This document shows positions 1,952 to 37,988 of a stretch of DNA of 37,988 bases, in pieces. The notes beneath the pieces were generated by a model. The model searched no databases, was not told the origin of the DNA, and saw only the letters and a program-made list of their open reading frames with translations. The stretch lies in IMG/VR virus record IMGVR_UViG_3300034524_000189, positions 1 to 37,988 of that record. One strand, 5' to 3'. A program made the position numbers and the translations under genes. This DNA comes from a virus. Position 1 is the first letter of the stretch. Each line of letters opens with the position of its first letter.

Positions 1952-2759
1952 AGTGGCAAACGAGCAGTGGGATGAATACGAGCGGGGCGAAAAACAATTG
2001 AGAAGCCAGTGTCGCGGGTGCCAAGGAGTAGGGTTATATGAGATCGGGACTTCGTTACCAGATCCGGATGCCTGCAAAAGGCCCGTGGTAGACAAGGATG
2101 GTCGGGTAAAATGGCAGCGCTGTCCGGTCCAAGAGGAGTATCGTCAGCGAGTTATAACCAAGCGACTCTTGGGGGAATCAAATCTACCGCGGCGGTTTCA
2201 GAGGCGCACCCTGGAAAATTTTATCCCGCGCAGCCATAAAAGCCGAGAGGCGCGCCTCGTAGCGCAGAAGTTTGTAGAAGAATTCGGGAGCGATGATCAG
2301 CAAGGTTTGTTAATAATGGGTCCAAACGGTACGGGCAAAACCCACTTGGCCGCCGGCATAATGATGGCTCTAATCCAAAAAGGCATACTCTGCAGGTTTT
2401 ATACCGCGCCTGACCTGCTGGCCACGCTCAGAGGAGCGGTAGCTGACAATAGAGTTCAGGAAACACTTACGGTTCTCGCAGGTCTGCCCTGCCTCGTAAT
2501 AGACGACCTGGGCAAGGAGCGGTTACGGCGGGGCGAAGGCGAAGATGTGGGCTGGGCAGACGAACTCTGGTTTACCCTAATCAACCGCCGATACGAGGAT
2601 GACAGGCCTACTATTTTCACCACAAATCTTAACGACCAGGAAATAATAGAACGCTATGGCATAGCCATTTACTCCCGCATTGTAGAAATGTGCAGGCCTA
2701 TCCTGCTAGATGAGGAGGACTTTAGAATATATGGACCCGGAGGCGGTCGGAATGCCTGA
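1749..2759 (+). CDS. DnaC-like AAA+ helicase loader
   Basis: An ATP-driven loader that delivers the host replicative helicase to the phage origin. The C-terminal half is a DnaC/IstB-type AAA+ domain: Walker A GPNGTGKT (residues 191-198), Walker B LVIDDLG (249-255), sensor-1 segment FTTNLND, and an Arg-finger-like YSRIVEMC. The N-terminal part holds a zinc-ribbon-like set of cysteines (C88, C91, C109, C125), common in phage DnaC proteins. The ATG at 1749 follows AGGAGGGAGC, which makes a 203-nt overlap with the preceding gene; an internal ATG at 1821 or 1929 is possible but less well supported. Confidence 0.85.
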   Translation: MMQEQPHQGQPVRIGNIAGSLLAAMEERKKLREAKVRDAITQAGSLASALSATFPLLLKKMADTVTIEVANEQWDEYERGEKQLRSQCRGCQGVGLYEIGTSLPDPDACKRPVVDKDGRVKWQRCPVQEEYRQRVITKRLLGESNLPRRFQRRTLENFIPRSHKSREARLVAQKFVEEFGSDDQQGLLIMGPNGTGKTHLAAGIMMALIQKGILCRFYTAPDLLATLRGAVADNRVQETLTVLAGLPCLVIDDLGKERLRRGEGEDVGWADELWFTLINRRYEDDRPTIFTTNLNDQEIIERYGIAIYSRIVEMCRPILLDEEDFRIYGPGGGRNA

Positions 2760-3690
2760 GTTAATAGAATTGCGGATAGAACAGATTAGGGTTAACCCCA
2801 AGAATGTGCGCGAAACCATTGAACAGGACGGCGTTGAGGAACTGGCCGAAAGCATCAGGTCAGTGGGGCTGTTAAATCCTGTAACGGTCTCTCCTGCCCC
2901 GGATGGTAATGGTTACGTTTTGATTGCCGGCGAGAGGCGCTTTCGGGCATGCGTTGAAGCAGGCATGGAAACCGTCCCCGCTATTGTGCGAGATCTCAAA
3001 CAGGATGAGCAAATATTGATTGGCATCCTGGAAAACGTGCAACGACAGGAACTACACCCTTTAGACGAAGCCAGGGCTTACAAGAAGCTTATGGATGAGT
3101 TTGGTTGGAGTCCCACCCAGATCGCCAAGCGGGTCGGCAAGTCACAACCCTACGTCAGTAACAGACTGCGGTTGCTTAAACTGCCAGAGGAAGGACTAGA
3201 GAAGCTGGCGACCGGTGAGATAACCCCCAGTCATGCCATGATAATCCTTCAGGAAAAAGACGAGGGTCGCCAACGGGTCCTCTTAGAAGAGGCCTCACGT
3301 CGGCCAGTGGAGGAACTGGAGAGAATGATCGGCAAAAGGGGCCGCCAAACGAAAAGCGAAGCGGAATCCGAAAAGGCGGTCAGAAAGAAGCGGCGTGAAG
3401 CAAATAAGAGCGATGGCAGCCCGGTTAAGGAAGCAGGTCCACAGCCTGGCCAGGTGGTCAACCTGTCTGAAATGCTTAAAGAGGTTCAGGACCCTTTGGC
3501 ATTGGAAGTCATCGAGATAATCCGCCGGGCCGGTAGGGATATTCAGGAGGCCATCGAGGAACTGCCAAAGGAAATGGGACCGACTTATTACCACGATCTT
3601 CTGAAAGCAGCGGAAGAAACGGCACAGATTGCGGCCGATGCACTCATGCAGGTGCGGGCAAGGCGGGCCCAAGTAGCAGGTGGTGATTGA
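2752..3690 (+). CDS. ParB-family DNA-binding protein
   Basis: A ParB/Spo0J-type protein. The N-terminal ~95 residues are the ParB nuclease/CTPase fold (IRSVGLLNPVTVSP, then the signature GERRFRA and ENVQRQELHPLDEA), followed by the HTH (PTQIAKRVGKSQPYVSNRLR). After residue ~200 comes a charged linker and a helical C-terminus. The start is taken as ATG 2752 (GGAGG eight bases upstream; MPELIELR is a usual ParB beginning); ATG 2731 is the alternative. It overlaps the DnaC-like stop by 8 nt. No parA is visible. It could serve plasmid-like partition of the prophage, or phage replication or transcription control. Confidence 0.85.
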   Translation: MPELIELRIEQIRVNPKNVRETIEQDGVEELAESIRSVGLLNPVTVSPAPDGNGYVLIAGERRFRACVEAGMETVPAIVRDLKQDEQILIGILENVQRQELHPLDEARAYKKLMDEFGWSPTQIAKRVGKSQPYVSNRLRLLKLPEEGLEKLATGEITPSHAMIILQEKDEGRQRVLLEEASRRPVEELERMIGKRGRQTKSEAESEKAVRKKRREANKSDGSPVKEAGPQPGQVVNLSEMLKEVQDPLALEVIEIIRRAGRDIQEAIEELPKEMGPTYYHDLLKAAEETAQIAADALMQVRARRAQVAGGD

Positions 3691-3691
3691 A

Positions 3692-4438
3692 ATGGCCGGT
3701 AAATCCGGGAAGTGCGGTATGTGTGGCAGAAGCATCTGGAATCCCGTTTCAGTGGCGGTCGGACTGGGCTGGTATCACCGGGCACAAATCGGAGTTTGTA
3801 AATACGGCGGCTTGAATGCGCTCTTTGGCCTCCAGTGGGGCACCGGCGATCCCGAGCCGTTCTACGACGCCTGTGAGAGTATTGAGAGAGCACTGCGTGC
3901 TCTTCAGTTGGTGACGGATAGCGGCACAAGGGCCAAAAAACGCCCTGACTATACCGAAGCCTTCAATATTCTGGCGGAACTCCGGGAGGAAGCTAGGAGC
4001 AAGGCGTCACCCATGTATGGTCTGGCCTGCTGCTGGCGGCTGGTAGGCGAATTACGCTTTAACCTGGAACCGGGATTGAAATACCTGCCGGCCAGGGCTG
4101 TTGAATTGCCTACCGAAGCCTTGCATGTCGCTTTTGGATGTGGGCCCGTTATTGAGCCGTCGAAGATCAAGCCCTACCCTCCCCTATGGGTCGAACAGGT
4201 ACCGGCGGCCGCTAACATTTACCAAGATATCCAGCGGATCATGTGCATGTTGGGAGCGGCGGCCGACGCCGTAGACCTTCGCCATATCCGCCGGGAAGAT
4301 CATAAAGTGCTGTCGCAGGGAGGGAGCCTTTACCGGAAGGCCGGCAAGGAGGTGATAAAAGGCGAAAAACGTTTGACAGAACAGGCTCACCATATTATTG
4401 AAAGCCGTTGGGAGGGAGAAGCATTTGGGACCGTCTAG
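3692..4438 (+). CDS. Uncharacterised protein with N-terminal zinc-knuckle
   Basis: I do not recognise this 248-residue protein. It begins with CGMCGRS, half of a possible zinc site, and has a second Cys near residue 36. The middle is helical and contains an Arg/Glu-rich segment (ILAELREEARSKASP), and a CCWRL pair lies near residue 110. Its place between parB and small early genes suggests a replication or partition accessory role, but that is position only. The ATG at 3692 sits 7 bases after AGGTGGT; GTG 3680 in the same frame would overlap parB by 11 nt. Confidence 0.6.
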   Translation: MAGKSGKCGMCGRSIWNPVSVAVGLGWYHRAQIGVCKYGGLNALFGLQWGTGDPEPFYDACESIERALRALQLVTDSGTRAKKRPDYTEAFNILAELREEARSKASPMYGLACCWRLVGELRFNLEPGLKYLPARAVELPTEALHVAFGCGPVIEPSKIKPYPPLWVEQVPAAANIYQDIQRIMCMLGAAADAVDLRHIRREDHKVLSQGGSLYRKAGKEVIKGEKRLTEQAHHIIESRWEGEAFGTV

Positions 4439-4806: not shown

Positions 4807-5208
4807 ATGCCCCTAACGGGGGTGAACTACTTGGTCGGCGAAAAGGAGGAATACAGTACAGGAGAAGTTGCGAAACTGGTAGGCCTGCGGTCTACCTGGT
4901 GGCTACGAAAGAAGATTAGATACGGCGAGGTATCCGCCCGCAAGGTTCCATCCCGTTACGGTGGCGGATTGGCATTTGAATACCGGATACCCGCCAGTGA
5001 AGTAAAGAGGGTGCTGGTGGAACGGTTGGTGAGGACGCTGAGCAGGAAAACGAGCCCTGGCAGAAAGGCAGAGAGGTTACAACCCCGAGCATTTGATCCT
5101 AAAAATACACCACCATGTCCCGAATGTGGGAAGCCTTCCGGATATCCACAGGGCGGCTTGTGTATTAAGTGCTACCGGAAGCGCCGGCGGGAGGCGGGTA
5201 AACGATGA
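4807..5208 (+). CDS. MerR/excisionase-like HTH protein with C-terminal zinc ribbon
   Basis: Residues ~16-70 resemble a MerR/AlpA-type helix-turn-helix (EYSTGEVAKLVGLRS, then a KIRYGEVSARKV wing-like segment and EYRIPASEVKRVL). The C-terminus carries a CPECGKPSG...CIKC zinc ribbon followed by a basic tail. This combination suits a sequence-specific DNA-binding regulator or excisionase-type factor. The start is uncertain: ATG 4807 or GTG 4822 (behind ACGGGG). Longer upstream reading in this frame overlaps the previous gene and looks non-coding. The stop overlaps the RecU start as ATGA. Confidence 0.6.
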   Translation: MPLTGVNYLVGEKEEYSTGEVAKLVGLRSTWWLRKKIRYGEVSARKVPSRYGGGLAFEYRIPASEVKRVLVERLVRTLSRKTSPGRKAERLQPRAFDPKNTPPCPECGKPSGYPQGGLCIKCYRKRRREAGKR

Positions 5209-5861
5209 GTTACGCTGGGAACCGCGGCAAGGGTTTGGAATTGATTATTGAACAGGCCTGCGCTTATTACATACAGCACCATATTGCGGTAATCCAGAAG
5301 GTACCCACCCCTATCGGCCGGTCATTGCGGAGGGTGCAGGGGCTGAGAGCGAATGAATTTGTGGCTTTCTACGAGAAGGACAGCACGGTTGACTTCATCG
5401 GTGTTATGCGGGGTGGCGTTGGCGTGGCCTTTGATGCCAAGGAAACTTCCGACGATAAGCGGTTTGATCTCAGGATTATTGTAGGCCGTCAAACCAGAAA
5501 ATGGCAACGAAACTGGTATCCAAACCAGCACCAGATGGATTTCCTAGAGGCCTGGACCGCAGCGGGTGGCAGGGCGTTTTACTTGGTCGGCAAGAGTGGT
5601 AACGGGAAGCCGTTAGTATTTCTTTGGCCGTACGAATCATTTCGGCGGGTTCTCAAAGAGGCCGAGGCGGGCGGTCATAAGTCGGTCACGTGGGAACAGA
5701 TGAAACAAATAGCACTGCCGGTGCCATGGGCCCCAGGCGTAGGATGTGATTTTTTGGCGCCGCTTATGCAGGACGGTGAGGGAAGATGGCCGGGGAACAA
5801 GCATCAGAACGATATATCCTCAATAATGAATGCTGGCGGCCAATTGCTGAAGCCCTCGTAA
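5205..5861 (+). CDS. recU: RecU-like Holliday junction resolvase
   Basis: Resolves recombination or replication intermediates of phage DNA. The RecU pattern is clear: GNRGKGLE at the N-terminus, KVPTPI near residue 32, the catalytic block STVDFIGV (D63) and FDAKET (D77, K79), then HQMDFLEAWTAAGGRAFYLV. The usual catalytic Glu of the FEAK motif is Asp (D77), a conservative change. The start ATG 5205 overlaps the previous stop as ATGA. The last ~25 residues overlap the next gene by 76 nt and are beyond the conserved fold. Confidence 0.85.
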   Translation: MSYAGNRGKGLELIIEQACAYYIQHHIAVIQKVPTPIGRSLRRVQGLRANEFVAFYEKDSTVDFIGVMRGGVGVAFDAKETSDDKRFDLRIIVGRQTRKWQRNWYPNQHQMDFLEAWTAAGGRAFYLVGKSGNGKPLVFLWPYESFRRVLKEAEAGGHKSVTWEQMKQIALPVPWAPGVGCDFLAPLMQDGEGRWPGNKHQNDISSIMNAGGQLLKPS

Positions 5862-6274: not shown

Positions 6275-7186
6275 ATGGTTAGAAGAGGCCCAAATTCAAA
6301 ACATTTTCAGGCGGCACTAGACGAGGCTGCAAGTGGCACCGGAACAATTATTTATGACCGCTTTGGCAAGCCGTCGCTGATGTTTGAGATACCGAGGTTT
6401 AATTTGAACGAAGTAATTGATGGCGCTCCAAATCTCCCGCACCCTGCTTTCATTGTCAATGGGAAGGTTAAGCCTGCCATCTATATTTCCATGTGGCAGA
6501 ACATTGTTCATGGCGACGCTGCCTATTCTCTGCCTGATTGTGAGCCCACCACAGGTATTGACTTCGACGAGGCCTATGAGTTGTGCCTTAACAAAGGCTA
6601 TGGCTGGCATTTATTAACTAATGCCGAATGGGCGGCCCTGGCGCTCTGGGAACTGAAGCATGGCCGGACAGCGGTACAGCGCGATTGGTGGGAATGGGTG
6701 GACGGCTTAAAGCTTGTCAATGGCCGCATATATGTCCACAAAGACAATAATTTCATGACCGGTAATAAGGCTGGTGACGTTACCGATTGGCAAGATACCG
6801 GAATCTATTTTGACGCCGAGGATCATGTTAATCCCAGAGACGATTTTGGCTGCAAGCCCATACTGAACAATAAAATAATCAATCAGATGAACCCTTCTGA
6901 TCCTAATAGCGATGATTATCTTGCCTATGCCAGCTGTCCCTTCCGGGAACTGAAGGCGGCCGAAGGGATAGAGATACCTGCGCTGCTTCAATACTTAGCC
7001 ATTGCTCCCCTGCCCTCTTACTCAGGACCAGAATATATTTGGGTCAGAAACTACGGCGAGCGCTTGCCGCTCCGCGGTGGCTATTGGGACAACGGTGCCA
7101 GCGCGGGTGTGTTCGCCCTGAACTTGATCTCCCCGCGGTCGAACGCGACTGCGAACATCGGCTTCCGCGCCGCTTATGTTGGATAA
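6275..7186 (+). CDS. C-type-lectin/FGE-fold protein with DGR-type variable C-terminus
   Basis: Looks like the variable target protein of a diversity-generating retroelement (DGR). Residues ~109-125 carry GYGWHLLTNAEWAALAL, a signature of the FGE-sulfatase/C-type-lectin fold found in DGR targets, and YIWVRNYGERLPLRGGYW (255-271) leads into the terminal RGG..N(G)..AGVFALNL..(P)RSN....NIGFR block (267-298). In DGR targets that block is the variable region, whose scattered Asn codons are randomised; here those positions read Y, D, A, S, I, S, A, T, A. The start ATG 6275 follows AAGGATGG. No signal peptide. It sits among early genes, not tail genes, with no reverse transcriptase, avd or template repeat in the window. 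A non-diversified FGE-like protein is the alternative. Confidence 0.75.
   Translation: MVRRGPNSKHFQAALDEAASGTGTIIYDRFGKPSLMFEIPRFNLNEVIDGAPNLPHPAFIVNGKVKPAIYISMWQNIVHGDAAYSLPDCEPTTGIDFDEAYELCLNKGYGWHLLTNAEWAALALWELKHGRTAVQRDWWEWVDGLKLVNGRIYVHKDNNFMTGNKAGDVTDWQDTGIYFDAEDHVNPRDDFGCKPILNNKIINQMNPSDPNSDDYLAYASCPFRELKAAEGIEIPALLQYLAIAPLPSYSGPEYIWVRNYGERLPLRGGYWDNGASAGVFALNLISPRSNATANIGFRAAYVG
7058..7183 (+). other. Candidate DGR variable repeat (VR)
   Basis: This is the 3' end of the lectin-fold gene. Its codons at the expected variable positions (TAT, GAC, GCC, AGC, ATC, TCC, ACT) are mostly reachable from AAC/AAT by changing adenines, while the intervening codons (GCGGGTGTGTTCGCCCTG and AACATCGGCTTCCGC) match the conserved DGR frame. 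ACT would also need a change at a C, so the fit is not perfect. No matching template repeat was found in this window. Confidence 0.5.
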
Positions 7187-7233
7187 CTGAATCCTGAATC
7201 CTGGGCCTCTGAGATTGGAGGTGACAACCGGCA

Positions 7234-7425: not shown

Positions 7426-7839
7426 ATGGCTAATGAAGCTTTGGTACTTCTCTATGCCCGCGTTTACGATAACGATGCCGAGTTATTTGCTTTGGAGACT
7501 GAGGCAAAGGGTATTTTGGCTAAAGCCCTGGAGTATGCCGAGAACATCGAAAGCGACCTCAGGTTTTACCGCGAAGTTCAAGGAATGCGCGTTGCCATGG
7601 ACACAATCAAAGATGCAAAGGCATTGGTATTGCTGTTAAAGGAGGCACAAAAGGACTGCCCGGAATGTCATCTATTCCAGGGGCAATCAAACAATAAGGC
7701 GAGGGATCTAAATGACCGGGAAAATGCAAGTAAAACCACGCGGTTATTTTCTACTGGGTGTGGCGATAACTCTTATAGTGTGGCTTTTGGCAGCGAAGAC
7801 CGGCGAAGGAGGTTCGGAGTCAGGAGCGCCCGGCAGTAG
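7426..7839 (+). CDS. Small helical protein, unknown
   Basis: The first ~90 residues are helical and acidic (EALVLLYARVYDNDAELFAL, then MDTIKDAKALVLLLKEAQ) and end with CPECH. The last ~42 residues overlap the next gene by 128 nt in another frame and look like unselected sequence (Arg/Ser/Asn-rich). The start ATG 7426 follows GAGGGGCGGTAAGG. Function unknown. The real protein may be functional only up to about residue 95. Confidence 0.5.
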   Translation: MANEALVLLYARVYDNDAELFALETEAKGILAKALEYAENIESDLRFYREVQGMRVAMDTIKDAKALVLLLKEAQKDCPECHLFQGQSNNKARDLNDRENASKTTRLFSTGCGDNSYSVAFGSEDRRRRFGVRSARQ

Positions 7840-8269
7840 CTTGGAAACTATATCTTCAGAGACATTCGCCAGCGGAAACGATCACTCCGCCGCCTTATCT
7901 AACCGTAATATCCATGCCCTTCTGTTACCTGAAGGAACAACGTTGATTATGGAGGCAACAGCCTATACTTCGGACTATGAAAGCACTGGGAAAAAACCTG
8001 GAGATCCGGACTATGGCATAACCTTTTCCGGGTTGCCGGCTATGCGGGGCGCTGTGGCGGTTGATCCCGATGTCATTCCCCTCCATTCTGTGCTATTGAT
8101 AGAAGGATATGGTTACGCGGTGGCGCTGGACACAGGTTCGGCCATTAAAGGCAACAGGTTGGACGTTTACTTTGATGACCCGCAAAAAGCCAAGGCCTGG
8201 GGTCGGCGGCAGGTCGAGGTTCGGCTAATTTCCCGTGGTGGGGTGAGGGAAAGCAATGGGCAAAGGTGA
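7712..8269 (+). CDS. Membrane-anchored 3D-domain protein (lytic transglycosylase-like)
   Basis: An N-terminal hydrophobic segment (residues ~11-27, GYFLLGVAITLIVWLLA) acts as a signal anchor; a Ser/Gly-rich linker follows; the C-terminal half is a 3D domain, named for three aspartates: TAYTSDYESTG, AVDPDVIPLHSVLLIEG and VALDTGSAIKGNRLDVYFDD. The fold is shared with MltA-type transglycosylases and Bacillus YabE/YuiC, so it may cut or remodel peptidoglycan outside the membrane, in lysis or as a cell-wall enzyme. ATG 7712 follows GGCGAGGGA, 128 nt inside the preceding gene. Confidence 0.75.
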   Translation: MTGKMQVKPRGYFLLGVAITLIVWLLAAKTGEGGSESGAPGSSLETISSETFASGNDHSAALSNRNIHALLLPEGTTLIMEATAYTSDYESTGKKPGDPDYGITFSGLPAMRGAVAVDPDVIPLHSVLLIEGYGYAVALDTGSAIKGNRLDVYFDDPQKAKAWGRRQVEVRLISRGGVRESNGQR

Positions 8270-20978: not shown

Positions 20979-21611
20979 ATGGCGGCCAAAAAGAAGAAGC
21001 GGCGGAAAATATCCGTAGAAACCGCAAGAGACCTCAATAATAACTTTCCGCCCAATGTACTCAAATTTATTCAATTCATGGCGGCCGGCAAGGAATGGAA
21101 CGGCGTCAAGATGACGCAGGAACAATTTGCAATTGAGGTGTTGAAGGTCCGGCCGGAAACCGTGACCCGGTACAAGCAACTTCCTGGGTTTAAAGAAGCG
21201 GTCAATGCTTTGGTAGACGAATACCTCTGGTCGGAAACGCCAGCCGCCATCAAGGCCCTGGCCAAGCGGATGCGTATGGGCGATGTAAAGGCCATTGAAA
21301 TTGGCTTAAAACAGTCCGGCAGGTGGAATCATGTTGAAAAAATAGATGCCAACTTTACCGGCAATATGCAAGCGACGGTGACCCTGGATGAGCGAGCCAG
21401 CCAGACAATTGACAGAGCAATTGCAGCTGCTCTCACGGGACTTGCCGCGGTCCTACAAGGCGGCACTCCAGGAACAGGCAGCAAACCTGGTGCGGCAAAT
21501 GCAGCAATTACCGCAGCTCTGGCAAGACTGGCCGATGGCCTGGAAGCTGGAACTACTGCGGAAAGTCAGGAATCTGGCGCGCCAAGCGAGGGTCCAGAGG
21601 GGGAAAACTGA
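20979..21611 (+). CDS. Terminase small subunit-like protein
   Basis: The DNA-recognition subunit of the packaging motor. It has a basic start (AAKKKKRRKISVETA), a helix-turn-helix-like region (KMTQEQFAIEVLKVRPETVTR and an AIKALAKRMRMGDVKAIEI segment as in phBC6A51-type small terminases), and an Ala/Gly-rich C-terminal tail. ATG 20979 follows GGGAGAG; the in-frame sequence upstream to 20943 looks non-coding. The last ~75 residues overlap terL by 224 nt in another frame. Assignment rests on position before terL and on the HTH pattern. Confidence 0.7.
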   Translation: MAAKKKKRRKISVETARDLNNNFPPNVLKFIQFMAAGKEWNGVKMTQEQFAIEVLKVRPETVTRYKQLPGFKEAVNALVDEYLWSETPAAIKALAKRMRMGDVKAIEIGLKQSGRWNHVEKIDANFTGNMQATVTLDERASQTIDRAIAAALTGLAAVLQGGTPGTGSKPGAANAAITAALARLADGLEAGTTAESQESGAPSEGPEGEN

Positions 21612-23076
21612 CCTAGAGTTTTTTGCCCGGTACTATTTTCCCCATATCTTCCGGGACGAAACACCAGAGTTCCATTTTGAGTTAGATGATTTAGTAGCCG
21701 AGGCTCAGGAAAAAAGGGCCCGCGGAGAGAAAAAGGGACTGATTGTAGCCGCCCCCCGCGGGTTTGCCAAGTCTACGAGGATCACTTTCCTGCATCTTAT
21801 TCATGCCCTGTGTTACCAGAAGAAACGTTTTGCCGTAATTATTTCCAATCGAGCAACAGCGGCGGAGCAGTTCCTGGTAGACATCCGTAAGGAAATAGAG
21901 GAAAACGAAAGACTGCAAGAAGACTTCGGCGATCTAAGGGGTGATCTCTACGGGGAGCGGTGGACCAACACCGATATCGTGGTGGTCCACTGCAAGCGTG
22001 ATGAAGACGGCCGGCCGATACTCTCCCCGCGCGGTAAGCCGGTAGTTGTTTGGCGGACCAGGGTAACGGTCCGCGGCACCGGTACCCAGCTGCGCGGTAT
22101 GAAATACCGGAGCTATCGGCCAGACCTGGCAATCCTTGACGATGTTGAGAACGACGATCATGTTATTACCGAGGATGCCCGGGCCAAGGCATGGGCATGG
22201 TTCAACGCCGTAGTAGTGCCTATGCTAGATCCGGTGGAGGGTGATCTGATTGTTATAGGCACTATCCTCCACTATGATAGCCTGCTGGCCAAACTGCTGA
22301 ACCCTAAAGCCGAACATGCCTCGGTCTATATTCAGAAGATATACCGGGCTGTCAAAGAAGACGGATCACCTCTCTGGCCGACTCGTTTTCCACTTGAGGC
22401 GCTGCGCCAGATACGAGTGCAGATAGGTACCCTGAAATTTAATCAGGAGTACATGAACCAGCCCATAGACGAAACGACACAGATTTTCCCGCCCAAGTGG
22501 TGGCGGTTCTATACCAGGCAGGACCTGGAGTACAAAGGAAACAAATGGTATTTTAAGGGCCAACCATTGGAGATCTTCCAGGGAGTTGATCCGGCAATAG
22601 AGGAAACGGCAAGCGCCCACTATTTTGCCCATGTAACCATTGGGATCACTAAGGCGAAAGATATCGTTATTCTCTGGCCGTACGCCGGTAAAATAGACTT
22701 TCCCAGGCAAGTGCGCCTGATCATCGAACAGGCCAACACCTGGAAGCCGCGGAAGATAGGGATTGAAAAGCAGGGGTATCAAAAGGCGCTGGCCCAGGGC
22801 GTGACCATGCTGGCGAAGGCGGTTCTGCCAATCAAAAAGCTGAGCAATACAGGTGCCAAATTCAGCCGGATTACCGCCCTTTCAGTGTATTTCGAGAACG
22901 GGCAGGTCTGGATTAAGGGTGATCCAAATACCCGACAGCCGGACCCCTACTTCCAGCAGTTTTATGATGAGGCAATCCAGTACCCGAACAGTCCGGCCGA
23001 TGACTTGCTGGACGCTTTCGAGAACGCCATTCAATGCGCCAGCGGCGGGAAAAAGGCATTCGAGGAGTGGTTTTAA
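21388..23076 (+). CDS. Terminase large subunit
   Basis: The ATP-driven packaging motor and nuclease. Key marks: LEFFARYYFPHIF, Walker A APRGFAKST (~residues 123-131), Walker B LAILDDVEND (~248-257) with catalytic acid, coupling segment IGTILHYDSLL, and the RNase-H-like nuclease domain starting at QGVDPAIEE (~400) and ending with the SPADDLLDAFENA motif. The N-terminal ~75 residues are Gln/Leu-rich and lie over the end of the small subunit gene. ATG 21388 has no strong ribosome-binding site, so translation may be coupled to terS, or start later at ATG 21532. Confidence 0.92.
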   Translation: MSEPARQLTEQLQLLSRDLPRSYKAALQEQAANLVRQMQQLPQLWQDWPMAWKLELLRKVRNLARQARVQRGKTDLEFFARYYFPHIFRDETPEFHFELDDLVAEAQEKRARGEKKGLIVAAPRGFAKSTRITFLHLIHALCYQKKRFAVIISNRATAAEQFLVDIRKEIEENERLQEDFGDLRGDLYGERWTNTDIVVVHCKRDEDGRPILSPRGKPVVVWRTRVTVRGTGTQLRGMKYRSYRPDLAILDDVENDDHVITEDARAKAWAWFNAVVVPMLDPVEGDLIVIGTILHYDSLLAKLLNPKAEHASVYIQKIYRAVKEDGSPLWPTRFPLEALRQIRVQIGTLKFNQEYMNQPIDETTQIFPPKWWRFYTRQDLEYKGNKWYFKGQPLEIFQGVDPAIEETASAHYFAHVTIGITKAKDIVILWPYAGKIDFPRQVRLIIEQANTWKPRKIGIEKQGYQKALAQGVTMLAKAVLPIKKLSNTGAKFSRITALSVYFENGQVWIKGDPNTRQPDPYFQQFYDEAIQYPNSPADDLLDAFENAIQCASGGKKAFEEWF

Positions 23077-34355: not shown

Positions 34356-35216
34356 GTGTTCGGGTTAATCGTGGATATTTCGGAATTAGTAAGGGCAGCT
34401 GAAAACATAGATACAAGCTGGTCTAACCTTAAAACCCAAATAGCCGTCGAAACCCGCCGGGTCCAGGCGGTTTGGCAGGCCGCGGTTTACGGGATGCTTC
34501 TACCGGGGATGACCAAGCCGGTGTTTTCGGACGGCTACTATGCAAGCCTGACCACTCCTGACGCCTTTCAGTATCCTTTTAACGGTGACGCCTTTGCTGG
34601 CGCGGTAATAAGCACATATCCCCGGGCTATGATGATCGAGGAGGGTTACGCCAGTTTTGACATGAAGCCAGGCCTACTAAATGGGCCGAAATCCCGCCCA
34701 AAGAAAGACGGCGGCCGCTATAACATCGTGCCTTTCAGGTATCTTCTGCCAAATAAGCAATACCGGAACCGCCACTTTCCCACTATGCCGGTGTCCATTG
34801 CCCGGCTTGTAACCGCTAAAAGCTTCGCGCCTTCAATTCAGGACCAACCTGGCGGAAAGGTGCAGTGGGGATCCAGATTAGAACTTCCCGCAGGCGAGTA
34901 TCCGGGAGCCATCAAGAACCCATTCTATACCGCCGCCGAAGCGGAGCGCCGGGGGAAAGAAAACCCGATGACTGATGTTTACGCGTGGAAGTCCAGCCCG
35001 TTCGCCGGCATGGTACGGATACAGAAGACGTATGAGCAGCGGAAGCAGAGCATTTATCTGACTTTCCGAACGGTGAGCGACCAAAGCGACCCGAATTCCT
35101 GGATCCACCCTGGTCAGCCCCCCAACCCTGTAGTAGACGCCGTAGCTAATTACGTGCGCAAAGAGGTTGAGGATAATCTGAGCGCAGCGGCAGCGAGAGA
35201 TATAGGCGCCCAATAA
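34356..35216 (+). CDS. Probable neck/tail-completion protein
   Basis: A 286-residue protein whose C-terminal half (MVRIQKTYEQRKQSIYLTFR, TVSDQSDPNSWIHPGQPPN, then VVDAVANYVRKEVEDNL) is typical of phage proteins that finish the neck or tail interface (HK97 gp10-like place and pattern, 'SW.hPG' region). It is the last late structural gene in the window and is followed by an intrinsic terminator. GTG 34356 follows GGGAGGTGGCATAA. Confidence 0.55.
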   Translation: MFGLIVDISELVRAAENIDTSWSNLKTQIAVETRRVQAVWQAAVYGMLLPGMTKPVFSDGYYASLTTPDAFQYPFNGDAFAGAVISTYPRAMMIEEGYASFDMKPGLLNGPKSRPKKDGGRYNIVPFRYLLPNKQYRNRHFPTMPVSIARLVTAKSFAPSIQDQPGGKVQWGSRLELPAGEYPGAIKNPFYTAAEAERRGKENPMTDVYAWKSSPFAGMVRIQKTYEQRKQSIYLTFRTVSDQSDPNSWIHPGQPPNPVVDAVANYVRKEVEDNLSAAAARDIGAQ

Positions 35217-35230
35217 TATCAGTCTTTAGT

Positions 35231-35258
35231 CCTGGCCAACCGCCAGGATTTTTATTTT
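35231..35258 (+). terminator. Intrinsic terminator ending the head/neck block
   Basis: CCTGGC (35231-35236) pairs with GCCAGG (35242-35247) around a CAACC loop, then a run of T residues with one A (35249-35258). It lies 15 bp after the last neck gene and fits a rho-independent terminator. Confidence 0.85.
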
Positions 35259-35264
35259 AGATAA

Positions 35265-35293
35265 TTGACATCATGGGTGCACCTATGATATTC
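35265..35293 (+). promoter_or_regulatory. Promoter with embedded palindromic operator
   Basis: TTGACA at 35265-35270 is a perfect -35. The -10 is GATATT (35287-35292), a 4-of-6 match at 16-bp spacing. The spacer is TCATGGGTGCACCTATGA (35271-35288), a near-perfect inverted repeat around GGTGCACC with one mismatched pair. A dimeric regulator bound there would block RNA polymerase. This drives the small-gene cassette that starts at 35348. Confidence 0.65.
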
Positions 35294-35347
35294 TTCTTCT
35301 TAAGAAGGACCAAGACGAATCGAACAACGTTGAAAGGAGAGGCCAAC

Positions 35348-35383
35348 ATGACATACGCCCAAAGCGTGCCGGAATGGGCATGA
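35348..35383 (+). CDS. Possible 11-residue leader peptide
   Basis: ATG 35348 is preceded by GAAAGGAGAGG and encodes MTYAQSVPEWA, then TGA. The next gene's ribosome-binding site (GAGGAGGTG) begins at the stop codon, so the two are probably translationally coupled. It may be no more than a translation leader. No protein family. Confidence 0.3.
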   Translation: MTYAQSVPEWA

Positions 35384-35396
35384 GGAGGTGAAAGTG

Positions 35397-35552
35397 ATGC
35401 CCAAATTTATTGTAACCTCACCAGGCGGGCGCACTATAACCGTAGAGGCTAAAAATTCAACCCAGGCCAAACGGAAAGCATGCAAGATATGGGAACTTAA
35501 GCCTACAGATTATTGGTGCGGAATAACTTCATTAAAAGCCAGGAAGATTTAG
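35397..35552 (+). CDS. Small phage protein, 51 residues
   Basis: Starts at ATG 35397 behind GAGGAGGTGAAAGTG and ends at TAG 35552. It has the pattern FIVTSPGGRTITVEA, then QAKRKACKIWELKP and DYWCGITS, a short basic protein type that is recurrent in phage early and accessory regions. Function unknown. It is the first sizeable gene of the cassette after the terminator. Confidence 0.6.
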   Translation: MPKFIVTSPGGRTITVEAKNSTQAKRKACKIWELKPTDYWCGITSLKARKI

Positions 35553-35640
35553 AGAGAATGAAAAGCGGGATGAGAACCTGCCATTAACCACAAGCTAACC
35601 GCCTTAGGTTAATCTCATTTTATGGAAGGAGGTAAAACAG

Positions 35641-35979
35641 ATGCCCGTATTACATTGCGACGAAACTCAATGCGTGGCCAGGTTTCCTGCTGGAGTATGT
35701 AAGTGCTTTGACCAGCAACCCCCGATGAAGAATGGCCGTTGCTCTATGTTCTGGCCCCGAAAGGAGTGGAGGCTTTACAGTTTCGATATCGGCGACAAAG
35801 TTCGCGTAACACTTCTCGGTGAGAACGAAGGCCGAATCGGCGAGGTAGTCAGCAAAGAGCAGCCGAAACCTGGAGTGGTAAAATATTGGGTAAGGTTTAT
35901 GGGGCAACACCCCACCATCGGCGAGGTTTGGGACTACTACGGCGACGAACTTGAACCTGCCCAAGAAAGTAAATCATGA
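35641..35979 (+). CDS. Cys-rich protein, unknown
   Basis: A 112-residue protein. Several Cys occur in the first 35 residues (LHCDETQC, GVCKCFD, GRCSMF), likely binding zinc or an Fe-S cluster; the rest is a beta-rich domain of SH3-like flavour (FDIGDKVRVTLLGENEGRIG, then VKYWVRFMGQHPTIGEVWDYYG). ATG 35641 follows a consensus GAAGGAGGTAAAACAG. Function unknown. A short inverted repeat region (35573-35618, TGAGA..TCTCA and TTAACC..GGTTAA) lies just upstream. Confidence 0.55.
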   Translation: MPVLHCDETQCVARFPAGVCKCFDQQPPMKNGRCSMFWPRKEWRLYSFDIGDKVRVTLLGENEGRIGEVVSKEQPKPGVVKYWVRFMGQHPTIGEVWDYYGDELEPAQESKS

Positions 35980-35994
35980 ATATGTGATATAGTA

Positions 35995-36094
35995 ACATCA
36001 GGCGGCGCCGCTGAAATAAGCGGAGCGCTATCGGAGCCGGGACAACCTGGCAATGCTCACGGCCAGTGCCAAGCACGGAACCGCCGCCCGATGT
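35995..36094 (+). ncRNA. Structured RNA element, second copy of the 12388 type (candidate)
   Basis: Fold by eye. P1 is ACATC + GGCGGC (35995-35999, 36001-36006) with GCCGCC + GATGT (36083-36088, 36090-36094) and one A/C mismatch. P2 is CCGCT/AGCGG (36008-36012/36019-36023) with a GAAATA loop. P3 is GAGC/GCTC (36034-36037/36055-36058) around a CGGG-ACAA-CCTG hairpin. P4 is CGG/CCG (36060-36062/36081-36083; its last G competes with P1) with CCA, then GTGC-CAA-GCAC, then GGAA. The order and loops match the RNA at 12388, with different base pairs. No start or stop is needed here; the next gene begins at 36128. Confidence 0.6.
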
Positions 36095-36127
36095 GAATAT
36101 TTTGTTTAGAAAAGGAGGATTAATTTT

Positions 36128-36358
36128 GTGCCATACTACGAAGCTAAACCTAAAAACGGCAGATTAACAGGTCGGCATAAAAAAGAGTTGCAAAAAGCCG
36201 GTTTTGGGTGGACAGGGTTAGGGTGGATTACATTCGCCGAACGCCCCCCTAAAGTTTGGGGGTGCACTGTTAGAGCTATTAGGCCGAAATCTCGCACAAC
36301 GGTAGTAAAAACAGAACAAGACTGGTATAAATTTCTCAAGGAAACATTTGGCTTTTAA
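36128..36358 (+). CDS. Small basic protein, unknown
   Basis: A 76-residue basic protein (RHKKELQKAGFGWTGLGWITF, then a Lys/Arg-rich end). GTG 36128 follows AAAAGGAGGATTAATTTT. Unknown function; Trp/Gly-rich composition suggests a small folded domain. Confidence 0.5.
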   Translation: MPYYEAKPKNGRLTGRHKKELQKAGFGWTGLGWITFAERPPKVWGCTVRAIRPKSRTTVVKTEQDWYKFLKETFGF

Positions 36359-36391
36359 GTTAGCAATATACATTCCAAAGGAAGTGCTAAT

Positions 36392-36622
36392 ATGAGATTT
36401 AATGATGAGCGATACCAGAAAATGTATGAAAATATCAAGCGTGATGCAATGAAAGAGGGTTACTCTGAGGAAGATTTAGAGAAGCCCTACCTTGACAAAC
36501 TAAGTAAGCAAACCAAATCTGTGCGGATTATGAAAATGATTAGGTTAGCTTATTGGCTTGGATGGCTTCGGGGAATAAAGTTTTGTGATGAAATGCTAAA
36601 TGCCAAAATAACCTTGAGATAG
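36392..36622 (+). CDS. Small protein, unknown
   Basis: A 76-residue helical protein with Lys-rich stretches (QKMYENIKRDAMKEGYSEEDL; SKQTKSVRIMKMIRLAYWLG). No recognised family. It follows AAAGGAAGTGC and is part of the cassette of small genes after the terminator. Confidence 0.5.
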   Translation: MRFNDERYQKMYENIKRDAMKEGYSEEDLEKPYLDKLSKQTKSVRIMKMIRLAYWLGWLRGIKFCDEMLNAKITLR

Positions 36623-36644
36623 CATAGAGGAAGGAAGGGTTATT

Positions 36645-36833
36645 GTGCTTTCTAAAGATGAACAAAAGTTTATTAGACAAAAGTGCAAAGTTATACGTAG
36701 GCATTTAAATGAATTGTTGCCTATAGCGGAACAGGTGGAAGAACGCGCTCCTAAAGTAACCGAATTTGCGTTTGCTATTAACTTAGATCTTAATGATCTA
36801 GAACAAGCATTAAAGAAGAGCGTTAATCAATAA
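36645..36833 (+). CDS. Small helical protein, unknown
   Basis: A 62-residue protein. GTG 36645 follows GGAAGGAAGGG. Mostly helical (DEQKFIRQKCKVIRRHLNEL). Function unknown; may be a small regulator or antitoxin-like helix bundle, without a diagnostic motif. Confidence 0.45.
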   Translation: MLSKDEQKFIRQKCKVIRRHLNELLPIAEQVEERAPKVTEFAFAINLDLNDLEQALKKSVNQ

Positions 36834-36881
36834 CCACACACACCAAAGAAGATAACCATTTAAAAGGAGCAATAAAACACA

Positions 36882-37112
36882 ATGCGAAAACCGAGGATTA
36901 ATATCGACCTACCTGCTGATGTACTCGAAGAAGTGGAAAGAGAAGCGGCCCGACTCAAGATCAGTCGCAATGAAGCCATAACTAGGCTTCTGCGTGCGGG
37001 CCTGGGGCAGAAAGAGGTCTACTTCTGCCCTTTTTGCCATGCCGAATGCCGGCCAGGCGTTAAGTCGTGCATTCACTTTGACCCAAAAGAAGTCACCTGG
37101 AGGAGAGTGTAG
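36882..37112 (+). CDS. Ribbon-helix-helix protein with C-terminal zinc motif
   Basis: Residues ~4-42 form a ribbon-helix-helix (Arc/CopG-type) DNA-binding domain: RINIDLPADVLEEVEREAAR, then KISRNEAITRLLRAG. The tail has CPFCHAEC, then C, suggesting a zinc site. This could bind the palindromic operator at 35271-35288, though that is only an inference from its presence in the same cassette. ATG 36882 follows AAAAGGAGCAATAAAACACA. Confidence 0.7.
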   Translation: MRKPRINIDLPADVLEEVEREAARLKISRNEAITRLLRAGLGQKEVYFCPFCHAECRPGVKSCIHFDPKEVTWRRV

Positions 37113-37178
37113 GCAATTTAATCGCCAGAGGAGGATGGACTATTGTTAATCCGGATATCGCTTAAGGAGGTGATTTCA

Positions 37179-37445
37179 TTGACCGAAATTCCCGTAGTGG
37201 TGCGGCACACCAAATTAACAGATGAGGAACAGGAAGTTTCGTTGAATTATGATGATCAGGAAAGCTGGGAGAGAAGTCTGCCACGACAATTCGTTCCACG
37301 AGAAAAGTTTGTCGATTTCCTTGAACAGTGCAGCCGCAAGACAGAACGCCTCGAAGATCCTAAGAAAAGAGTAGACCTAATCGTCAGTTTTGATTATTGG
37401 CCGGAGTTTGTACTCGTTCAGATATACGATGACTATATAGAATAA
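37179..37445 (+). CDS. Small protein, unknown
   Basis: An 89-residue acidic protein. TTG 37179 stands behind the perfect site AAGGAGGTGATTTCA, which decides the start; the track-like longer frame begins at TTG 37143. Mixed alpha/beta (TEIPVVVRHTKL; PKKRVDLIVSFDYWPEF). No known family. Confidence 0.5.
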   Translation: MTEIPVVVRHTKLTDEEQEVSLNYDDQESWERSLPRQFVPREKFVDFLEQCSRKTERLEDPKKRVDLIVSFDYWPEFVLVQIYDDYIE

Positions 37446-37529
37446 GAAGCGGCTTTTGGGTTGCAAAATCTATCACTAGGGCACCCTCCAATGAGAGTGC
37501 TCGACGTTTTGAAAGGGGATGGCAAATTT

Positions 37530-37988
37530 ATGAGTAAGAACTTTCCACATTGGTTGACAGCAGATATAATTCTTCCCCAACTAGTAGAACGATATTGCCG
37601 GCTTGCGATTGAGAGCAATGAGAATGATGTTAATATCGGCCTTCTTGACCCGGAAATTATTTGGTTAGTGCCTCCGGAGGATAGGGAAAAATTCCAACAA
37701 ATTTACATTGAATTTGCTAGTTTAATGATGCAACTACTCGAACCCATGCTAGACAGATATATTGGCACCACCAATGAGCCTAAAAACATTCATTGCTTGA
37801 AGGCAGACGTGGAAAATGTATTGCAATCTTTGAAGCAGCATTGCGGATATACGTATAAAGATATTCTGCTCATGATGCTCCTTGAAGGCGAAGAGGAGCG
37901 AAAACAGATTATCAGCATGGTTTTGCAGTTGCAACCAGTGCCGATATTTCACCTTCGGGGTTGTTGGGAATTAAAGCCAGTCCCCTAA
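37530..37988 (+). CDS. Helical protein, unknown
   Basis: A ~152-residue, mostly helical acidic protein. The start is taken as ATG 37530 (GAAAGGGGATGGC upstream); TTG 37461 and ATG 37491 in frame have no ribosome-binding site. Strong helical segments (IYIEFASLMMQLLEPMLDRY; then LLMMLLEGEEERKQI). No known family. It ends exactly at the window edge with TAA, so it is complete. Confidence 0.5.
   Translation: MSKNFPHWLTADIILPQLVERYCRLAIESNENDVNIGLLDPEIIWLVPPEDREKFQQIYIEFASLMMQLLEPMLDRYIGTTNEPKNIHCLKADVENVLQSLKQHCGYTYKDILLMMLLEGEEERKQIISMVLQLQPVPIFHLRGCWELKPVP

Follow-up and report, generated by a model that had tools for sequence, protein, structure and literature searches.

A putative distal second target of a DGR in the early region of a phage

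The window analysed here, i.e., the whole of a linear virus record in IMG/VR (37,988 bases), contains a gene (6275-7186, plus strand) for a 303-residue variable protein (VP2), which is a target of a diversity-generating retroelement (DGR) and is probably the distal second target of a DGR of the type found on contig L016 (IMGVR_UViG_3300034524_000194). We consider VP2 a real DGR target because its variable region (VR) differs from a template repeat (TR) at adenines only, the 5' boundary of the match is sharp, the body of the gene comes from a different VP lineage, and the protein is predicted to have a C-type-lectin fold. An error-prone reverse transcriptase (RT) of the L016 type would copy the TR, misreading its adenines, and the cDNA would replace the 3'-terminal VR of VP2 and also that of the tail-located variable protein (VP1). 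The DGR would belong to the tail module of VP2's own phage lineage, which would make VP2 its distal second target, and homing would continue at a lower rate without the hairpin that this site has lost. The role of VP2 may then be that of another hypervariable binding protein besides VP1, in the simplest case a second adhesin, given that it shares the VP1 fold and lacks an evident signal peptide.

The variable protein, its variable region and the matching template

A preliminary description of this DNA had delimited the open reading frame and the conserved C-terminal VR frame as they are given here, had considered the product a DGR-type variable protein, and had proposed a search for a near-copy differing only at template adenines. 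By scanning a 21-base pattern from the constant VR core over 2.9 million viral contigs, we found one matching contig, L016, which was hit at two sites 602 bp apart and carries a complete DGR (VP1-Avd-TR-RT) together with baseplate genes. Its TR (1997-1881, minus strand) is such a near-copy on a separate contig: the VR of VP2 (117 bp, 7059-7175, plus strand) is identical to it at 94/94 non-adenine positions, and all eight differences fall on TR adenines, of which there are 23 (P=7.2e-7, or about 1.5e-6, calculated by hand, when the 21-base search pattern is excluded). The VR of VP2 thus departs from the TR at TR adenines alone, as expected of a DGR target, and the gene is not the "orphan" that it had been called, for a matching TR-RT cassette exists. 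The residues changed are L266, Y270, D272, S276, I285, S286, and T292 (numbered by hand from the coordinates). The VR of L016 VP1 likewise differs from its own TR at adenines only (11/11), and the 14 sites that distinguish it from the window VR are all TR adenines.

The adenine-free 3' end of the VR (7158-7175, plus strand), identical in the L016 TR, the VP1 VR, and the window VR, resembles an initiation of mutagenic homing (IMH) site and was named as such by its position only. Compared with the L016 TR, 11 non-adenine positions are changed in the TR of L020, a cassette whose RT is 98% identical, and the TR of L259 mismatches the window VR at 9/93 such positions. The complete non-adenine identity between the window VR and the L016 TR, while these sibling TRs have drifted, implies that the window VR was written recently from an L016-like template. 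A second VP2 allele was not found among the matches listed in direct searches of viral and genome contigs with the window protein, from which near copies of the window record were possibly left out. Elsewhere among the loci, L243, L249, and L254 have several additional TR/VR-like stretches between Avd and RT.

VP2 matches PHROG 2889 (phrog_2889; E 4.5e-81) and has no match in Pfam; a brief match to a reverse-transcriptase family was also observed, the N-terminus of that family being apparently read-through TR. Its closest solved relative is TaqVP (5vf4; phmmer E=4e-46), from a Thermus aquaticus prophage DGR (PDB 5VF4, PMC6328139), which has the same fold and its VR at the same C-terminal site; unlike VP2, TaqVP adjoins its own DGR, and VP2 is without an internal segment of more than 50 residues present in TaqVP. 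An AlphaFold2 (AF2) model built with 52 relatives reached a pLDDT of 91.8, and Foldseek returned TaqVP as the clear best match (TM 0.87, E 7e-29), with Mtd, TvpA, and FGE-like enzymes far below. The C-type-lectin/FGE-type fold suggested earlier is thus borne out by structure prediction, and the modelled protein has the ligand-binding fold of DGR targets, a C-type lectin in which the variable residues would be displayed. The relatives of VP2 often carry SUMF1/EgtB/PvdO annotations, which would fit an ordinary formylglycine-generating or EgtB-type enzyme with no link to DGRs. However, several isolate relatives adjoin Avd and RT: these genes follow the VP genes of the isolated phages BalMu-1 and FP_Lagaffe, as also in Dulem virus 37, and an RT lies nearby in VHML and Bise. 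The adenine-only TR match and the Foldseek ranking, in which enzymes score at 2e-3 or worse, led us to reject the enzyme identity, which is scarcely credible; neither by fold nor by sequence is VP2 closest to these enzymes.

Genomic context and probable location of the DGR

In the window, a repressor, cro, replication genes, ParB (a ParB-like protein, 2710-3690), the RecU Holliday-junction resolvase (5205-5861), and, immediately 5' of the VP2 gene, a phage metallopeptidase (5786-6247) mark an early region; a 3D-domain protein (7712-8269), dCMP deaminase, methylase-like genes, the large terminase (21388-23076), and portal lie 3' of it (all coordinates plus strand; genes without a matching search were named by eye). 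Using the terminase as a query, we found the related phages L001-L004 (92% amino acid identity). The last open reading frame of the window resembles one of L018, in which protease and capsid genes come next, and L001/L017, L002/L018, and L100 extend beyond the right end of the window through protease and capsid, L100 continuing further through the sheath to the tape measure. The record is therefore a fragment that ends before the capsid and tail genes. At its end, the stretch 35200-37988 drops in G+C to about 42-44%; this is an accessory stretch, and a seeming counterpart precedes the head genes in L018.

Neither an RT nor a template repeat was found in the 37,988 bases of the window, and a canonical cassette, with TR, Avd, and RT adjoining the target on one molecule, is not present in this fragment. 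This agrees with the preliminary description, which had also placed the gene far from tail genes; but because the capsid and tail genes lie beyond the end of the record, the absence of an RT from 38 kb says little about the whole phage. Clade DGR cassettes and contigs of window-type phages co-occur in three metagenomes: L016 and L100 in 3300034524, L020 and L003 in 3300005101, and L259 and L001 in 3300010236 (the DGR named first in each pair). Between 3300034524 and 3300010236, the DGRs are 80.4% identical and the phage backbones 80.8%. The sequence of L100 ends within the tape-measure gene and that of L016 opens in the baseplate, which is the expected order. On account of the co-occurrence, the like divergence, and this gene order, it is probable that the DGR sits in the tail module, missing from the window, of the same phage lineage. 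The earlier proposal of diversification from elsewhere thus holds insofar as the template lies outside the contig and the changes are adenine-only, but a host or other-prophage origin of the cassette is less likely than its placement in the tail module that this phage lineage is missing here.

Bridging searches yielded no contig joining VP2 and a DGR, and a tape-measure search for contigs linking head genes to a DGR gave none besides L100 and L213; the DnaC-like gene of the window as a query found no relatives. Tetranucleotide usage is compatible with linkage but not discriminating (L016 ranks 6 and L020 ranks 2 of 119). The co-occurrence could also arise from related communities, and modules of related phages may reassort, which counts against a single-lineage linkage. 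The host was not found, either by a TR search of 113 genomes of Desulfovirgula's class, which gave diverged TRs only (best 85%), or by a terminase search of 398 genomes of Desulfovirgula's phylum, which gave distant matches only.

Histories of the variable region and its flank, and alternative explanations

The match between the window and L016 VP1 has its 5' edge no more than about 5 bp from the TR start. In the 100 bp upstream of the VR, the two genes are only 42% identical, and their bodies are about 47% identical. In a phylogenetic tree of 53 VPs from which the VR had been removed, the window body falls inside a 17-row clade (97/93), whereas L016 VP1 pairs with L259 VP1 elsewhere; the terminal branch of the window body is long (1.62) and its exact placement unsure. 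Since the VR matches that of VP1 but the body belongs to another VP lineage, the VR and the body have had separate histories. Judging from these comparisons, the window VR appears to have been overwritten separately and not inherited with the gene body, and retrohoming predicts such split histories.

The match to VP1 extends 3' of the VR over a target flank (7176-7211, plus strand) with 35/36 bases in common, which is absent from the TR. Judging by its sequence, this flank is not TR-derived and must reflect common ancestry, recombination, or a conserved target site. It ends in CCTCTG (7206-7211, plus strand), a left-arm remnant of the hairpin that normally follows a VR; the loop and right arm are gone. 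In L016, the stem of this hairpin measures 13 bp (DNA fold z -4.8), and in L259 the stem and loop are still recognizable, with changes, whereas no hairpin or cruciform follows the VR in the window (z +0.35). A simple scan detected a stem of at least 7 bp in 116/172 VR/TR pairs, some of them overlapping, implying that such hairpins are common but not universal. The post-VR hairpins of this clade, seen in L016 (2415-2470) and L259 (about 3925-3965), have an 8-nt loop (CGCAACCA) and not the GRNA tetraloop known from phage DGRs; another longer loop, CACCAAA, is present in L035-L044. Spaced CTG/AATCTG repeats, e.g., TAACTGAATCCTGAATCCTGG, were observed between VR and hairpin in L016, L038, L220, L285, and L293, and such repeats, present in many cassettes, possibly belong to the target site.

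The flank and the truncated hairpin bear on whether VP2 is still a target. VP2 might be a retired target, as the preliminary description had also suggested, that is, a frozen VR copy recombined from VP1 together with the 36-bp flank, with the hairpin lost afterwards. The flank in common with VP1, which the TR could not have supplied, would fit such an event, and the truncated hairpin is the sole sign pointing to retirement: in BPP-1, where the hairpin is needed for efficient homing, disruption of the stem cuts tropism switching more than 1000-fold (PMC3240598). However, the shared block begins close to the TR start, and the lack of any drift at the 94 non-adenine positions, as against the 9-11 such positions at which the sibling TRs differ, speaks against a long retirement. 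Moreover, the distal VP of L287 has no 3' flank in common with L246 VP1, yet its VR fits the L246 TR (13/15 differences at adenines); the second VR of FP_Lagaffe is equally hairpin-less and reportedly varies at adenines (PMC11792537); and in a 2026 reconstitution of a DGR the stem-loop was important but not strictly required (PMC12875486). We therefore regard retirement as unlikely, with continued rewriting of VP2 as a distal second target being the preferred reading.

Alternatively, VP2 might belong to a phage lacking its own DGR, and the DGR of a different phage or prophage sharing the cell might rewrite it in trans. The RT is absent from the window and from the records of its relatives, tail-placed VPs occur in other RT-less records (e.g., L220, whose changes from the L028 TR are all at adenines, 13/13), and DGRs function with a target on a separate plasmid (PMC12875486). 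All of the RT-less records concerned are fragments, however. A single lineage is favoured by the three-metagenome co-occurrence and by the comparable divergence of DGR and backbone, and a distal second VP lies on the DGR molecule itself in L038, L281, FP_Lagaffe, and Dulem virus 37. Rewriting in trans thus seems rather improbable. The 158-bp repeat common to the two genes could also have misled an assembler into joining the VR block of VP1 into another gene. Such a chimera would require two in-frame misjoins within 158 bp, the block departs from the L016 VP1 VR at 14 sites that are all TR adenines, and the same arrangement is present in an isolate genome; we give this explanation very little credence.

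Distal second targets in other phages

A distal second target of a DGR is an already known kind of element, published in 2024-2025. In the isolated Faecalibacterium phage FP_Lagaffe, two VRs with adenine-specific variation at both were described in 2024 (PMC11792537), and the second target, gp40 (NC_047911.1 31798-33060), is, like VP2, a homologous VP encoded in the early region. Its VR lies 9.5 kb from the TR, with 11/11 mismatches at adenines, and a hairpin follows the first VR but not the second, just as the window VR has none. Unlike the window, FP_Lagaffe has its DGR on the same genome; gp40 extends beyond the VR and is next to an exonuclease, whereas VP2 comes after RecU and the metallopeptidase. 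A 2025 study of gut prophages reports four inducible species in which a second VR is remote from the RT cassette and close to DNA methyltransferases (PMC12629997); going by that description, the window is comparable, as its methylase-like genes, annotated by eye, lie some kilobases downstream of VP2. Mtd of BPP-1 (PMC3240598) resembles VP2 in being a C-type-lectin protein whose C-terminal VR is mutagenized at adenines, but mtd stands beside avd-TR-brt with a functional hairpin, neither of which is seen in the window. The L016 cassette, whose TR has no mismatch to the window VR outside adenines, is on a separate contig, and its VP1 belongs to another clade. To this known kind, the window adds a case in which the target body comes from a VP lineage other than that of L016 VP1 and the hairpin of the target site is lost.

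We scanned all fetched loci for distal second VPs. In L038, to which L042 is closely similar, a second VR lies 8.5 kb from its own TR on the same molecule (13/14 changes at adenines), and distal VPs on the DGR molecule were also found in L281 (9/11) and Dulem virus 37 (16/20), besides FP_Lagaffe gp40. L287 and the L246 TR come from one metagenome. The distal VR is without a hairpin in L038, FP_Lagaffe, and L287 (the hairpin of L246 VP1 being likewise weak or absent), and in L281 and Dulem virus 37 the hairpin was copied together with the VR. The L287 VP is directly 5' of a ParA/ParB pair, and those of L038 and FP_Lagaffe are directly 5' of an exonuclease. The four early VPs in the tree require three changes, suggesting that they are not one lineage, as far as four VPs with long branches can indicate. 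The second VPs of L038, L281, and FP_Lagaffe (gp40) have no counterpart of the N-terminal stretch, of about 10-20 residues or more, found in their respective VP1; in the window VP this stretch is retained, and it might be a baseplate attachment. VPs in RT-less records, several of them tail-placed, were observed in L220 (10001-11062), L221, L253, L285, L217, L222, and L264-L266. The L220 VR and the L028 TR, both from metagenome 3300033998, agree at 94/94 non-adenine positions, with the hairpin intact, which may reflect use of another phage's DGR or simply fragment ends.

It is conceivable, though we hold it doubtful, that phage DGRs repeatedly capture a second VP of the early region as an early-made hypervariable binder, e.g., of host defence proteins, and not as a tail adhesin, with rewriting independent of the hairpin and VP2 as one of several independent cases. 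Surveys of DGRs search mostly near the RT. Targets not adjoining an RT would escape the survey of Roux et al. 2021 (PMC8144416). The present case indicates that an "orphan" VP can be paired with its template across contigs through non-adenine identity. Considered along with FP_Lagaffe, L038, and L287, it suggests that second targets at a distance from the DGR, often lacking the hairpin, have several origins, and that they stay matched to the TR as their gene bodies diverge. Two questions thereby become testable: whether homing at these sites proceeds independently of the hairpin, and why a phage diversifies an early-gene protein.
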